A stretch of 64,000 nucleotides of DNA from Shimia thalassica. GTDB taxonomy: Bacteria; Pseudomonadota; Alphaproteobacteria; Rhodobacterales; Rhodobacteraceae. Location: assembly GCF_001458215.1 (NCBI RefSeq), contig NZ_CYTW01000001.1, positions 868,001 to 932,000 of the forward strand. The letters are read 5' to 3'. Positions 54,013 through 61,552 of the stretch are shown in pieces (positions within the stretch are counted from its first letter, which is position 1; each line of letters begins with the position of its first letter). The translations under genes were made by a program, and so were the position numbers. Below the pieces are notes generated by a model. That model saw nothing but the letters and a program-made list of their open reading frames with translations. It did not search any database and was not told the DNA's origin.

Positions 54013-54106
54013 ATTTTCCGGTGGTCAATGAATTTTCTTTAGAGGAATATATGATTCATAAAGTGATCGAGGTGTTTGGGTTGTTTTTTAAGCGTGAGGT
54101 GAAAAA

Positions 54107-55390
54107 ATGAGCAGCGTTTCTCTTGCGCAGCGTCTCGCAGTTGCCGGGAATCTTCCGCGTCTTTCCGTGCAGGATCGTGCCCCCATCAAGATCGGGGCTT
54201 TGGTGCCTTTATCTGGGTCGGAAGAGGCATGGGGGCGGCCCGGTGTCGAGGGCAGCCAGATTTGGGTCGACTGGATCAACAACCGCGGGGGCATGATGAT
54301 TGGCGGCCATCGCCGACCTGTCGAGTTGATTGTGCATGACAGTGCCCACTCGGCGCAGAGTGCCTTTGATGCGGCGCGCCAGATGGTCGAGACAGATCAG
54401 GTGTGTCTTGTGCTGACATTGGGTGGGGGGCAGCTTGCCCTTGCCTTGGACTATTTGATGCAGCGGCGCGTTCTGACCACAACCTTGCTGCCGTCTGATC
54501 TATCGCCGGATCATCCCTGCTTGATCGCACCTGCCGAGGTGCACCCGTTCTTTAATGTGACAGGGGTTGAGTGGTTGGCGCGCACCCAGCCAGAGGCGCG
54601 GCGCGTGGCCTTGTGTTCGCAACGTGACCTGTTGGGCTTGCCCTCGCTGGCCACATATCGCGCGGCCTTTGGTGTTGCGGGGCGGGACCTTGTCAAAGAG
54701 GTGATTTACGAGCCGGAAGAGGGCAGCGCCACCGAGATCGTGGCGGCGTTAATGGCCGAAGCACCGGATGTTCTGTGCTGGTGTTCGGCCGCGCCGCAGA
54801 TGATGGAAGACCTCACCGTCGCGGCATATGAGCAGGGATTTCAAGGGCAGATCATCGCCTGTACCTGCGATCACTACGACAGGATGATAGAGCGCACATC
54901 GCCGGAATTTATGGAGCGGTTTACCTTTCAGTTCCCTGACTTTGATGATCCGGCACTTGCAGAGATGGCGTTTTTCTTTCACCGGCCGGGTGCGTTTTTT
55001 GAAGAGTTCAATCAGCGGTTTCCTGGAAAATGGAGTGCGGTTAGCTGGGAATATGCTTCAATTCTGGATATTTGGCACAATGCCGTTGAAACTGCGGACA
55101 GTGTGAATACCGCGCCTGTTCTTGCGGCTCTGAAGCGGGGACGGCAAATGCCGAACGCCTTTGGGCAAGCGAACTGGTGGGGTAAAGACGTGTTCGGCAT
55201 CGACAATGCCTTGGTTGGAGATTGGCCCGTTGTCGCCATTCGAGATGGCAAGGCGCGCATACAGGAATTTGGATCGGTTCTGCGTTGGGTCGAGGCCAAC
55301 GGCACAGAGTTGGCCCGCGAACTCGAACGGTTGGGCCAGCTTTGGTATCAGAAAATGCCGTCTGATCTTGCCGGTGCATTGGCCAAGTGA
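54107..55390 (+). CDS. Periplasmic-binding-protein-like (Peripla_BP_6 / AmiC-type) protein without a signal peptide
   Basis: The 427-residue product begins MSSVSLAQRLAVAGNLPRLS and shows no signal peptide. The rest matches the family of amide/urea/leucine binding proteins: IKIGALVPLSGSEEAWGRPG, IWVDWINNRGGMMIGGHRRP, LAALKRGRQMPNAFGQANWWG. No cognate ABC permease or ATPase lies next to it. Without export it could be a cytoplasmic ligand sensor, as AmiC is for the amidase operon. It is divergent from tmm and followed by an XRE-cupin regulator. The ligand may be a methylated amine; this is inference. Confidence 0.8.
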   Translation: MSSVSLAQRLAVAGNLPRLSVQDRAPIKIGALVPLSGSEEAWGRPGVEGSQIWVDWINNRGGMMIGGHRRPVELIVHDSAHSAQSAFDAARQMVETDQVCLVLTLGGGQLALALDYLMQRRVLTTTLLPSDLSPDHPCLIAPAEVHPFFNVTGVEWLARTQPEARRVALCSQRDLLGLPSLATYRAAFGVAGRDLVKEVIYEPEEGSATEIVAALMAEAPDVLCWCSAAPQMMEDLTVAAYEQGFQGQIIACTCDHYDRMIERTSPEFMERFTFQFPDFDDPALAEMAFFFHRPGAFFEEFNQRFPGKWSAVSWEYASILDIWHNAVETADSVNTAPVLAALKRGRQMPNAFGQANWWGKDVFGIDNALVGDWPVVAIRDGKARIQEFGSVLRWVEANGTELARELERLGQLWYQKMPSDLAGALAK

Positions 55391-55438: not shown

Positions 55439-56074
55439 TTGAGCAAAGGTGACAAGGCCCTTCGGCAGAACCCCCACGCGACACGAGAAGCGCGAGAAAA
55501 AAACCTTGAGGTTGCGATCGGACGGCAGGTGCGTGAATTGCGCAAACGTCAGCGGATGACCGGATCGGATCTTGCGGCACAAACAGGTGTTTCTGTCGGA
55601 ATGCTCTCAAAGATCGAGAACGGGGTCATCTCGCCCTCTCTGAATACCATCTCCGCTTTGGCGGATGCACTGAAGGTGCCCCTCATTCAGTTGTTCTCCG
55701 GGTACGAGGAAGAGCGTGGATGTATGCACGTGAAAGCGGGGGAAGGTGTCGAGATCGAACGCGAAGGCACAAGGGCCGGTCACCAATACAGCCTGTTGGG
55801 GCACATTGGGTCCAACAATTCGGGCGTTGTGGTCGAGCCTTATCTGATCACCCTCACCAGCGAGAGTGACAGGTTCCCCGCCTTTCAGCATGAAGGCATC
55901 GAGATGCTCTATGTTCTTGAGGGGAAAGTTCAGTACCGCCACGGCGACAAGACATATGAATTGGGGGCAGGGGATACGTTGCTGTTTGATGCGGACGCCC
56001 CGCACGGGCCCGAAGTGATCCTTGAGCTGCCGGTGCGATTCCTTTCGATCATCACCTATCCACAGCAAAGATAG
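55439..56074 (+). CDS. XRE-family regulator with a C-terminal cupin domain
   Basis: The 211-residue protein has an XRE helix-turn-helix (RQVRELRKRQRMTGSDLAAQ, TGVSVGMLSKIENGVISPSL) and a cupin sensory domain (EGIEMLYVLEGKVQYRHGDK). The start is TTG at 55439-55441, supported by AAAGGAG about 7 nt upstream. Such regulators sense small molecules; here they probably control the methylamine genes on both sides. It lies between the binding-protein-like gene and the mgs operon, in the same direction. Confidence 0.9.
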   Translation: MSKGDKALRQNPHATREAREKNLEVAIGRQVRELRKRQRMTGSDLAAQTGVSVGMLSKIENGVISPSLNTISALADALKVPLIQLFSGYEEERGCMHVKAGEGVEIEREGTRAGHQYSLLGHIGSNNSGVVVEPYLITLTSESDRFPAFQHEGIEMLYVLEGKVQYRHGDKTYELGAGDTLLFDADAPHGPEVILELPVRFLSIITYPQQR

Positions 56075-56193
56075 GTTCGGCATTCGCACAAAAAGTAATC
56101 ATTCGCTCAATTGATGGTCAGACAACCCTTCGGGAGTGAATGAGCACGGTCAACTTTCGGGAATTTTCCGGTACCGACAAAAAGTTTCTTGAA

Positions 56194-56260
56194 GGGAAAA
56201 TAGATTTCCCATTAGGAAGGGTGCAACGACCCCGTGCGGGTCGAGGCAACTAATGGAGGT
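56194..56260 (+). promoter_or_regulatory. Structured 5' leader of mgsA, possible riboswitch or attenuator
   Basis: GGGAAA/TTTCCC (56194-56199 with 56205-56210) forms a hairpin with a 5-nt loop. CCATTAG (56209-56215) can pair with CTAATGG (56250-56256), enclosing a third hairpin CGACCC/GGGTCG (56227-56232 with 56238-56243). The CCATTAG arm shares two bases with the first hairpin, so the two folds compete. The CTAATGG arm overlaps the start of the GGAGG Shine-Dalgarno before the mgsA ATG at 56265, so that fold would hide it. I could not match it to a known riboswitch class. Confidence 0.45.
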
Positions 56261-56264
56261 ACCA

Positions 56265-57155
56265 ATGTGTGGAATCGTTGGTCTGTTTCTGAAAAAGGAC
56301 GAGCTGCGCCCGCAATTGGGTGACATGCTGACAGATATGCTCATCACGATGACGGATCGTGGCCCGGATAGCGCCGGGATCGCAATCTACGGTGAAGAGA
56401 CCGAAGGCATGGTCAAAATCACGGTTCAGTCGGACACGCCGGAAGAGGCTTTTGCCGAACTCGATGGTGCGCTGACGTCGGCCATCCACAGCCCTGTGTC
56501 GATGAAAGTTATCGACACCCATGCCGTGTTGACTGTCGCCGATAGCGTCGAGGCCAAAGCGATTGAGGTGCTGGAAGAAAAAGGCCTGCGCATCATGGGG
56601 TCGGGCCAGACGATGGAAATCTACAAGGAAGTTGGTCTTCCCAAAAATGTCGCGTCCCGCTTTGGGCTGCGTGACATGGGCGGAAGCCACGGCATTGGCC
56701 ACACACGCATGGCCACCGAAAGTGCCGTAACCACAATGGGCGCGCATCCATTTTCGACCGCAGATGACCAGTGCCTCGTGCACAACGGATCGCTGTCGAA
56801 CCACAACCAGATGCGTCGCAAGCTGGCCAAAAAGGGTGTCTTTACCCGCTCGGAAAACGACACAGAGGTCGGGGCCGCCTATATTTCGTCGCGCATTGCA
56901 GACGGGGCTACACTGGGCGAAGCGCTGGAAGGCACCATTGAAGACCTTGATGGGTTCTTTACCTTTGTCACCGGCACCAAGGATGGGTTCGGCGTTGTCC
57001 GTGATCCGATTGCCTGCAAACCCGCTGTCATGGCCGAAACAGACGACTATGTCGCCTTTGCCTCGGAATACCGTGCCTTTGCGGACCTGCCCGGCATTGA
57101 TGGTGCACGCGTCTGGGAACCTGAACCCGCAACTGTTTATTTCTGGGAGCGCTGA
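56265..57155 (+). CDS. mgsA: N-methylglutamate synthase subunit MgsA (class II glutamine amidotransferase)
   Basis: The 296-residue protein begins MCGIVGLFLKKDELRPQLGD; after Met removal Cys becomes the N-terminal nucleophile of class II amidotransferases. RGPDSAGIAIYG and GIGHTRMATESAVTTMGAHP follow. In the Mgs complex this part resembles the amidotransferase domain of glutamate synthase. It acts on gamma-glutamylmethylamide, passing methylamine to 2-oxoglutarate. It is the first gene of mgsABC-gmaS. The start was chosen at the Cys, with GGAGG upstream, rather than 4 codons earlier. GlxB is the closest alternative family name. Confidence 0.88.
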   Translation: MCGIVGLFLKKDELRPQLGDMLTDMLITMTDRGPDSAGIAIYGEETEGMVKITVQSDTPEEAFAELDGALTSAIHSPVSMKVIDTHAVLTVADSVEAKAIEVLEEKGLRIMGSGQTMEIYKEVGLPKNVASRFGLRDMGGSHGIGHTRMATESAVTTMGAHPFSTADDQCLVHNGSLSNHNQMRRKLAKKGVFTRSENDTEVGAAYISSRIADGATLGEALEGTIEDLDGFFTFVTGTKDGFGVVRDPIACKPAVMAETDDYVAFASEYRAFADLPGIDGARVWEPEPATVYFWER

Positions 57156-60588: not shown

Positions 60589-60620
60589 CGGGTCCGACCT
60601 AGGTCGGGCCCGTTTTTTTG
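60589..60620. terminator. Rho-independent terminator shared by gmaS and the convergent AraC gene
   Basis: CGGGTCCGACC pairs with GGTCGGGCCCG (one G-T pair) and is followed by seven T. It overlaps the stop codon of the convergent AraC gene, so the hairpin can serve transcripts from gmaS and perhaps from the other side. Confidence 0.82.
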
Positions 60621-61552
60621 CGTCTGGCAGACGGGGTGATGCCAAAGGTGCGCCGGAAGATGTCAGAGAAATGCGCCTGACTTGAGAAACCGGTCATGCG
60701 CGCGATTTCACCCACGCTTAGGTTTGATGACAGAAGCAATTCTTGTCCTGTTTCCAGACGGATACGCCGGTAGGTTTCCATCAAGGATGTTCCAAAACTG
60801 TCGCGAAACTGGCGCTGCAATTGTCGTGTGGACAGGCCCGAAAGATGTGCGATCTGGTCTTGATCCAAGGGGTCCGCGATGTGGGTTTCCATCAGTTCCA
60901 GTGCCGCGCTTACGGGGCGTGGTAAAACACCGTAACGTGCTGAGATGGACGCGGTTTGCGGGGCTTCGGCACCGCGCACTTCTGTCTGAATGAACCAGTC
61001 TGAAATACGCTGCGCAAAGGGCGTTCCAAAGTCACGCGCAATGATCGCGTGCATCATATCCAGCGGGGCCGACCCGCCCGCACATGTATAGCGGTCACGG
61101 TCGATCACGAACAATCGCCGCTCCAACAACCAATTGCCAGGCAGCGTTTCAAAGTCTTCGTAGTGGTGCCAATGCACAGTAAAACGGTGCTGGTTCAAAA
61201 GATCCGCACGCGCCAGAATGACCGAGCCGCCCGATATCCCGCCAAGCGCCACGCCTGCGCGATCCGCGCGGCGCAGCCATGCAAACAGAGACGGGTCGTT
61301 CATTCGCGCCGGATCGCCGCCAGCAACCACAAAAATCAGATCAAAATCAGGCTCGCATTCCCGAAAGGAGCGGGTTTCGAACTGCGCCCCAATCGACGAT
61401 TTTGCGACGGAATCCCTGTCTGACAACAGGGTAATGTCGTACCGCGGCGGGTCGGAAAACATGTTGGCAGCCCGCAAAGGTTCGAGCGCGGCGGCGGTCG
61501 ATAAAAGGGCGAATCCATCAACCAAAACAAAGGCGATTTTAAACAACGACAT
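60599..61552 (-). CDS. GlxA-type AraC-family regulator with a DJ-1/PfpI-like N-terminal domain
   Basis: The 317-residue protein has an N-terminal amidotransferase-like domain (KIAFVLVDGFALLSTAAALE, FDLIFVVAGGDPA, GVALGGISGGSVILARADLL) and a C-terminal AraC HTH pair (IAHLSGLSTRQLQRQFRDSF, SVGEIARMTGFSSQAHFSDIF). GlxA-type regulators control glycine-betaine, carnitine or methylamine genes. It is divergent from the mgd genes and convergent with gmaS. Likely activator of one or both operons by inference. Confidence 0.92.
   Translation of the reverse strand: MSLFKIAFVLVDGFALLSTAAALEPLRAANMFSDPPRYDITLLSDRDSVAKSSIGAQFETRSFRECEPDFDLIFVVAGGDPARMNDPSLFAWLRRADRAGVALGGISGGSVILARADLLNQHRFTVHWHHYEDFETLPGNWLLERRLFVIDRDRYTCAGGSAPLDMMHAIIARDFGTPFAQRISDWFIQTEVRGAEAPQTASISARYGVLPRPVSAALELMETHIADPLDQDQIAHLSGLSTRQLQRQFRDSFGTSLMETYRRIRLETGQELLLSSNLSVGEIARMTGFSSQAHFSDIFRRTFGITPSARRKKTGPT

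Follow-up and report, generated by a model that had tools for sequence, protein, structure and literature searches.

On balance, we read the leader of mgsA in Shimia thalassica as promoter and operator DNA, at which an XRE-cupin protein likely represses transcription, followed by a constitutive stem-loop in the transcript; we do not read it as a two-state switch. The dyads of this promoter are conserved in relatives and recur before the operon of the regulator, and a hairpin downstream of them is conserved in the mgsA leaders. The first-pass annotation of the window (the whole 64,000-nucleotide stretch of DNA analysed) had proposed a cis-regulatory RNA leader; what stands of this proposal is a structured leader between the promoter and the Shine-Dalgarno sequence in relatives, but not the two competing folds that were thought to hide the Shine-Dalgarno.

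RESULTS

The mgsA locus and the leaders compared

The operon's first gene, mgsA (glxB-like; 56265..57155, forward strand, as are all features below unless stated), encodes a class II glutamine amidotransferase domain; its product starts with MCGI, as is usual for class II amidotransferases. On the 3′ side are genes for a GXGXG subunit, a glutamate-synthase-like subunit and then a type III glutamine synthetase (gmaS-like). On the 5′ side, the stop codon of a gene for an XRE-cupin transcriptional regulator (55439..56074; Pfam HTH_3 and Cupin_2) is 190 nt from mgsA, and this gene is itself preceded by one for a Peripla_BP_6 protein (54107..55390; Pfam PF13458, E 3.5e-41), a possible partner of the regulator. 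The N-terminus of the Peripla_BP_6 protein, MSSVSLAQRLAVAGNLPRLSVQ, is by eye unlike a typical export signal, so that the protein may act in the cytosol as a sensor similar to AmiC. Genes for a trimethylamine monooxygenase and a TMAO demethylase lie on the opposite strand, and an AraC-type regulator with a DJ-1/PfpI domain (60599..61552, reverse strand) is TmaR-like by architecture and position only.

For comparison, we retrieved 80 mgsA relatives, the best of 225, and additional leaders came from 394 genomes of the family (118 with a match) and, in eleven cases, from named plasmids. Leaders with this type of promoter (58 of 100) were chosen for having the regulator and for resembling the promoter block (no more than 14 mismatches in 34 positions, with the block 66-100 nt away from the start codon); the hairpin played no part in the choice. 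Thinning to <75% identity gave 40 representatives, to which five plasmid leaders were later added to make 45; 63 leaders were available without thinning. The alignment used for the promoter (A2) holds 39 of the 45 representatives.

Dyads and promoter elements

Many leaders of mgsA relatives carry the block TTTCTTGAARRGAAAATAGNTTTCCCNNTAGTNA (64/81 at no more than 13 mismatches of 31 letters). The block consists of dyads of the form TTTCY-N5-RGAAA, each 15 bp long and repeated with a period of 20 bp, whose copies in the window begin at 56165, 56185 and 56205. Leader alignment and a PWM scan gave unit 1, TTTCTTGAAGGGAAA (56185..56199), and unit 2, TTTCCCATTAGGAAG (56205..56219); the 3′ half of unit 2 is weaker, with 63% of cells paired. 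Unit 0, TTTCCGGTACCGACA (56165..56179), is imperfect (PWM score 7.8), and its TTTTCC and its G, placed 20 bp ahead of unit 1, are weakly conserved in 61-63 leaders. In the organism's own genome, the exact tandem pattern is found a single time.

The spacers differ from one dyad unit to the next: TTG is kept in one, and TA in the following one, 24 bp later. Across the 39 aligned leaders, these two words have the geometry of a -35 and a -10 element with an 18-bp spacer. The likely -35 is TTGAAG (56189..56194), in which T at 56190 is invariant, and the likely -10 is TAGGAA (56213..56218), in which T at 56213 is invariant and A at 56214 is present in at least 90% of the leaders. Because this geometry falls in the dyad spacers, we read the block as promoter plus operator, with the dyads as the probable operator. 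The likely -10 predicts a transcription start near 56225. A weak point of the promoter reading is that in the leader alignment the -10 usually ends in A, and a strict sigma-70 consensus scan found no promoter at the leader. We also considered reading CTTGAA-N14-CCCAT as a putative heat-shock-sigma promoter. By eye, TTGA, a 17-bp spacer and TA can be seen in leaders of other clades and in five rhizobial leaders.

A second dyad array (54014..54048) precedes the Peripla_BP_6/XRE-cupin gene pair, with a PWM match at 54034 (score 16.4) and a TTTTCC word 20 bp upstream of it. Among relatives, four further sites reached the threshold of 12, three upstream of the XRE gene and one upstream of the binding-protein gene, compared with 0 in 20 shuffled loci. 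The array before the binding-protein gene is mostly below threshold (1 of the 18 loci having the gene reached 12); counterparts were visible by eye in the five relatives inspected, none of which reached 12. The second array has the binding-protein/XRE pair on one side and the divergent gene for trimethylamine monooxygenase (tmm) on the other, so that the same regulator may also act on tmm.

The likely regulator

An XRE-cupin homologue is found within 3 kb upstream of mgsA in 65/80 loci (best 80 of 225 relatives). In Pseudomonas, according to the available part of PMC7901475, XRE-cupin proteins inhibit neighbouring genes via palindromes in the core promoter. Corresponding features are present here: palindromic sites lie in the core promoter of the neighbouring gene, and a site precedes the regulator's own operon (54034, with four relatives scored and five more seen by eye). 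The position of the gene upstream of mgsA in most loci, the arrays before the regulator operon and the Pseudomonas precedent together make the XRE-cupin protein the likely binder of the dyads.

A further regulator may bind the mgsA promoter too, namely TmaR. In Ruegeria pomeroyi the pathway is activated by TmaR, whose DNA-binding domain binds the gmaS-mgs promoter, as described in the accessible portion of PMC13390433. Neither a leader element nor an XRE regulator was reported for this operon in the open-licence literature searched. We note that mgsA leaders having no XRE gene in the fetched flank (L104-L110) show by eye TTTCCnnnnnGTTGAG and then GCTAGCGT, with repeats approximately 21 bp apart, a layout that resembles an AraC-type activator site over the -35.

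The proposed competing helices

Every word on which the competing folds were built is present in the sequence: GGGAAA (56194-56199) and TTTCCC (56205-56210) for helix 1 (56194..56210), CCATTAG (56209-56215) and CTAATGG (56250-56256) for helix 2 (56209..56256), and the inner arms CGACCC (56227-56232) and GGGTCG (56238-56243) for helix 3. It is also correct that helices 1 and 2 overlap, with 56209-56210 common to both, and that CTAATGG includes the first two bases of the Shine-Dalgarno GGAGG (56255..56259). The 72 nt from 56194 to 56265 fold better than dinucleotide shuffles (z -2.26; 5/200 shuffles at least as good), and the minimum-energy fold contains helix 1 and the helix-3 hairpin together, with helix 2 absent. 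A 7-bp perfect inverted repeat arises in 391/5000 shuffles, and helix 2 alone is therefore not beyond chance.

Among relatives, the proposal of two exclusive, conserved folds did not hold up. Helix 2 is not conserved: six or more consecutive pairs joining the -10 region to the sequence ahead of the start codon were found in 10/63 leaders, with 7.0 expected from mispaired leaders, and its 5′ arm did not favour its own partner (z -0.9 to -1.3, arm swap with fixed splits). Helix 1 coincides with the junction of dyad units 1 and 2 and is conserved mainly as fixed letters: four of the six pairs hardly vary, and two outer pairs covary somewhat. Its covariation exceeds that of shuffles (0.168 vs 0.118; 1/500), but a slid control scored higher (0.224), and so the covariation is no proof of pairing in RNA; operator/promoter DNA is the best reading of helix 1. 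The hairpin of helix 3 is conserved among the leaders, with changing letters.

The expected transcript bears on both helices. The predicted start would lie downstream of 56215, a placement that the first-pass annotation itself had named as incompatible with its proposal. The 5′ arm of helix 2 overlaps the likely -10, and most of this arm would thus probably be untranscribed; a start near 56225 or at 56213-56215 would place helix 1 and most of the helix 2 5′ arm outside the transcript. A transcript reading through from the XRE gene could possibly include helix 1 and the 5′ arm of helix 2.

The leader hairpin

The leader hairpin (56222..56248) has a lower stem UGC/GCA, an internal loop AA/AG, an upper stem CGACCC/GGGUCG and a loop CGUGC. 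Judging from the comparisons below, it is a real hairpin between the -10 and the Shine-Dalgarno that is kept in relatives while its letters change. A 4-8 bp apical stem is present in 67/70 leaders, its end mostly 19-27 nt before the start codon, with varying loops and letters. An A precedes the upper stem in 29/42 leaders; the loop and the other flanks vary.

Folding of the region between the -10 and the Shine-Dalgarno had a mean z of -1.75 in the 40 representatives (-1.69 when begun six bases later), and of two regions further upstream the one containing a dyad unit gave -0.74 and the other -0.42. Beyond position 40, inside the predicted transcript, z was -1.14. A fixed window before the mgsA start codon gave a mean z of -1.49 (n=40); the means for control leaders were -0.10 for XRE genes (n=34), -0.32 for gmaS (n=34), -0.27 for the binding-protein gene (n=10) and -0.25 for mgsA leaders of other-promoter clades (n=15, one of which, L111, has an XRE homologue), and coding sequences ranged from -0.28 to +0.40.

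With fixed splits, the leaders' own hairpin arms paired better than arms swapped between leaders; the gain was 3.3-4.3 kcal/mol, with z from -8.9 to -12.0, and 30 shuffled sets spanned -4.1 to +0.5. Positions 56215-56225 contribute to this fit, at z -3.3 to -4.7 compared with +0.1 to -0.4 for the reversed control, and 56213-56218 gave z -2.7, a value to be read beside the -2.9 reached by one shuffled set. A control segment, block positions 0-7, scored -2.6 to -3.2, and because its reversed control scored alike (-2.3 to -3.1) we attribute that signal to composition; two numerically unsound rows, for positions 12-19, were left out. An earlier version of the swap, split at each leader's predicted apex, was dropped because it favours native pairs: dinucleotide-shuffled sets gave a fold z of -2.4 on average, compared with -11.2 for native ones, and the outer-arm value of -3.8 was indistinguishable from shuffled sets (mean -2.3, lowest -4.6). 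An early stem-score test (z approximately 4), which pooled the -10 with neighbouring bases, was likewise superseded.

In 26 leaders (set A1), 91.9% of the upper-stem cells pair and covariation is 0.169 vs 0.087 (0/500; slid controls at most 0.067), a result favoured by the choice of these leaders by eye, mostly for CGGCG-like stems. Sister leaders gave no support for pairing: where both partners had changed, 6/16 pairs were kept, compared with 3-7 of 13-16 in slid controls, and one-sided changes kept pairing less often than in slid controls (26/121 vs 46-65 of 121-156), in a comparison for which many of the 28 alignments, at 60-75% identity, are unreliable. Relatedness is only partly controlled in all of these tests of the hairpin. 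A covariance model of the upper stem (R1) is weak, with E <0.01 for 20 leaders (62 sources), of which only L029 lies outside the training set. In the organism's own genome R1 gave 8 matches, the mgsA leader not among them, which means that the true site had been discarded by the first-look filter; the three matches whose open reading frames were inspected (L124, L125 and L126) are in or across coding sequence.

The complementarity of the arms reaches 56215-56225 and so extends approximately 10 nt 5′ of the start that the -10 predicts. It follows that either the start is nearer 56213-56215 or the repeat is partly kept at the DNA level.

The ribosome-binding site and known RNA classes

In the window, the Shine-Dalgarno has an unpaired probability of 0.36-0.62 over six assumed start sites, and it lies outside the conserved stem. 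Across 39 leaders its unpaired probability was 0.40 vs 0.49 in shuffled sequences for RNA beginning at the conserved TA (p 0.008), 0.41 vs 0.49 for a start six bases later (p 0.05) and 0.44 vs 0.49 for a start twelve bases later (p 0.24). By these predictions, masking of the Shine-Dalgarno would be at most slight.

The earlier failure to match the leader to a known class agrees with Rfam 15, which had no match at the gathering score in the window, no match up to E 10 in 55900-56500 and none in 30 related loci. A translational riboswitch of described family is thus not indicated by Rfam 15, nor, with helix 2 at the frequency given above, are two exclusive conserved helices. The leader contains no intrinsic terminator of the kind expected of an attenuator; the single terminator-like match in 56060-56300 is at 56261-56282, across the start codon, with 0.2 expected in shuffles. 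In this match, ACCAATG...CGTTGGT can pair over the mgsA start codon, and the ACCA word is not kept in the neighbouring Celeribacter leaders shown. In the portions of three structured-RNA surveys that mention Rhodobacterales (PMC2864571, PMC8632094, PMC2704228), the elements that matched the search terms are other ones, none tied to this operon.

Rhizobial glxB leaders (L117, L118, L119, L120 and L122) extend only 88-90 nt after the XRE gene in annotated records. The leaders of the same gene contain a repeat, like CCTTTC...GAAAGG or TCTCCAA...TTGGAGA, that takes in the Shine-Dalgarno.

DISCUSSION

The likeliest scenario is that the DNA from 56165 to approximately 56219 serves as promoter and operator, with the -35 and the -10 in the dyad spacers. 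The most likely binder of the dyads is the XRE-cupin protein, which would keep both mgsABC-gmaS and its own operon repressed for as long as no metabolite occupies its cupin domain; the TmaR-like AraC activator probably works at the same mgsA promoter. The transcript would form a short GC-rich stem-loop from approximately 56220 to 56248, just before a mostly open Shine-Dalgarno, and this stem-loop is most likely constitutive, either guarding the mRNA at its 5′ end or leaving the ribosome site accessible. A constitutive stem-loop is the plain reading because the Shine-Dalgarno is outside the stem, its masking fades with later starts, the terminator-like match spans the start codon and Rfam has no match.

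There are other possible scenarios. It is unlikely, though worth serious consideration, that the hairpin is a regulatory RNA, in which a ligand, a protein or a small RNA alters mgsA translation in addition to control at the promoter. A structure kept while its letters change, and kept in mgsA leaders and not in those of the XRE, gmaS and binding-protein genes, would be expected of such an element, as would the recurrent A before the upper stem and the slightly lower openness of the Shine-Dalgarno for the earliest assumed start. However, the letters of stem and loop vary widely with no long fixed unpaired stretch, and the position of the Shine-Dalgarno and the negative Rfam result argue in the same direction; conservation is the sole positive evidence that the hairpin is possibly a sensing element. 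A narrower form, in which the hairpin would control translation as an element not described before and peculiar to N-methylglutamate synthase operons of the XRE-cupin type, is doubtful in our view. We also consider it rather improbable that the inverted repeat is preserved as DNA, for a DNA-binding protein or by repeat-perfecting mutation, with the RNA hairpin as a by-product. The reach of the complementarity upstream of the predicted start and the lack of an excess of paired substitutions in sister leaders are consistent with this, but the repeat letters are too variable for one binding protein, and the folding excess is also strong within the predicted transcript.

Very little probability remains for two mutually exclusive folds, one of them hiding the Shine-Dalgarno, in a transcript begun upstream of 56194. 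The words are present and do overlap, such an RNA could arise by read-through from the XRE gene, and helix 1 has mild covariation over shuffles; against this, helix 2 is scarcely more frequent than expected and its 5′ arm does not prefer its own partner, and helix 1 reappears in other promoters as a dyad in the DNA and is outscored by its slid control.

The favoured reading, an operator for an XRE-cupin repressor beside a constitutive stem-loop, has parallels in known systems. As with PauR, PsdR and ErfA of Pseudomonas, in the part of PMC7901475 available, the regulator is beside its target, dyads lie in the core promoter and sites are found on both sides of the regulator operon. Here, in contrast, there are three dyads with a 20-bp period over the -35 and -10, these putative sites are known from sequence, and the target is the N-methylglutamate synthase operon. 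TmaR of Ruegeria pomeroyi is comparable in that it acts on the gmaS-mgs promoter and the window has a TmaR-like gene; the accessible portion of that study (PMC13390433) gives no binding motif and makes no mention of an XRE or cupin protein. A likeness to the gltD motif, a riboswitch candidate, is the structured leader before a glutamate-synthase-type gene; the gltD motif, as presented in the portion of PMC8632094 available, has an aptamer-like part and a hairpin masking the ribosome site, whereas the mgsA leader has a single simple hairpin.

5′-terminal stem-loops of the type found in E. coli ompA stabilise bacterial mRNAs. The mgsA hairpin, as predicted from its letters, is similar in being a short GC-rich stem-loop near the 5′ end, with variable letters and an open ribosome site.

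Finally, this case illustrates that an operator dyad adjoining a hairpin can be mistaken for a riboswitch. If the hairpin were a translational element after all, the operon would be under double metabolite control, by the cupin protein at the operator and by the leader RNA. Methylated amines are an important organic nitrogen source in marine bacteria, and the switching of methylamine genes is only partly known, through TmaR and TmoR (PMC13390433, available portion). We suggest that the XRE-cupin protein is a second candidate regulator of the methylamine genes, with a defined putative operator.
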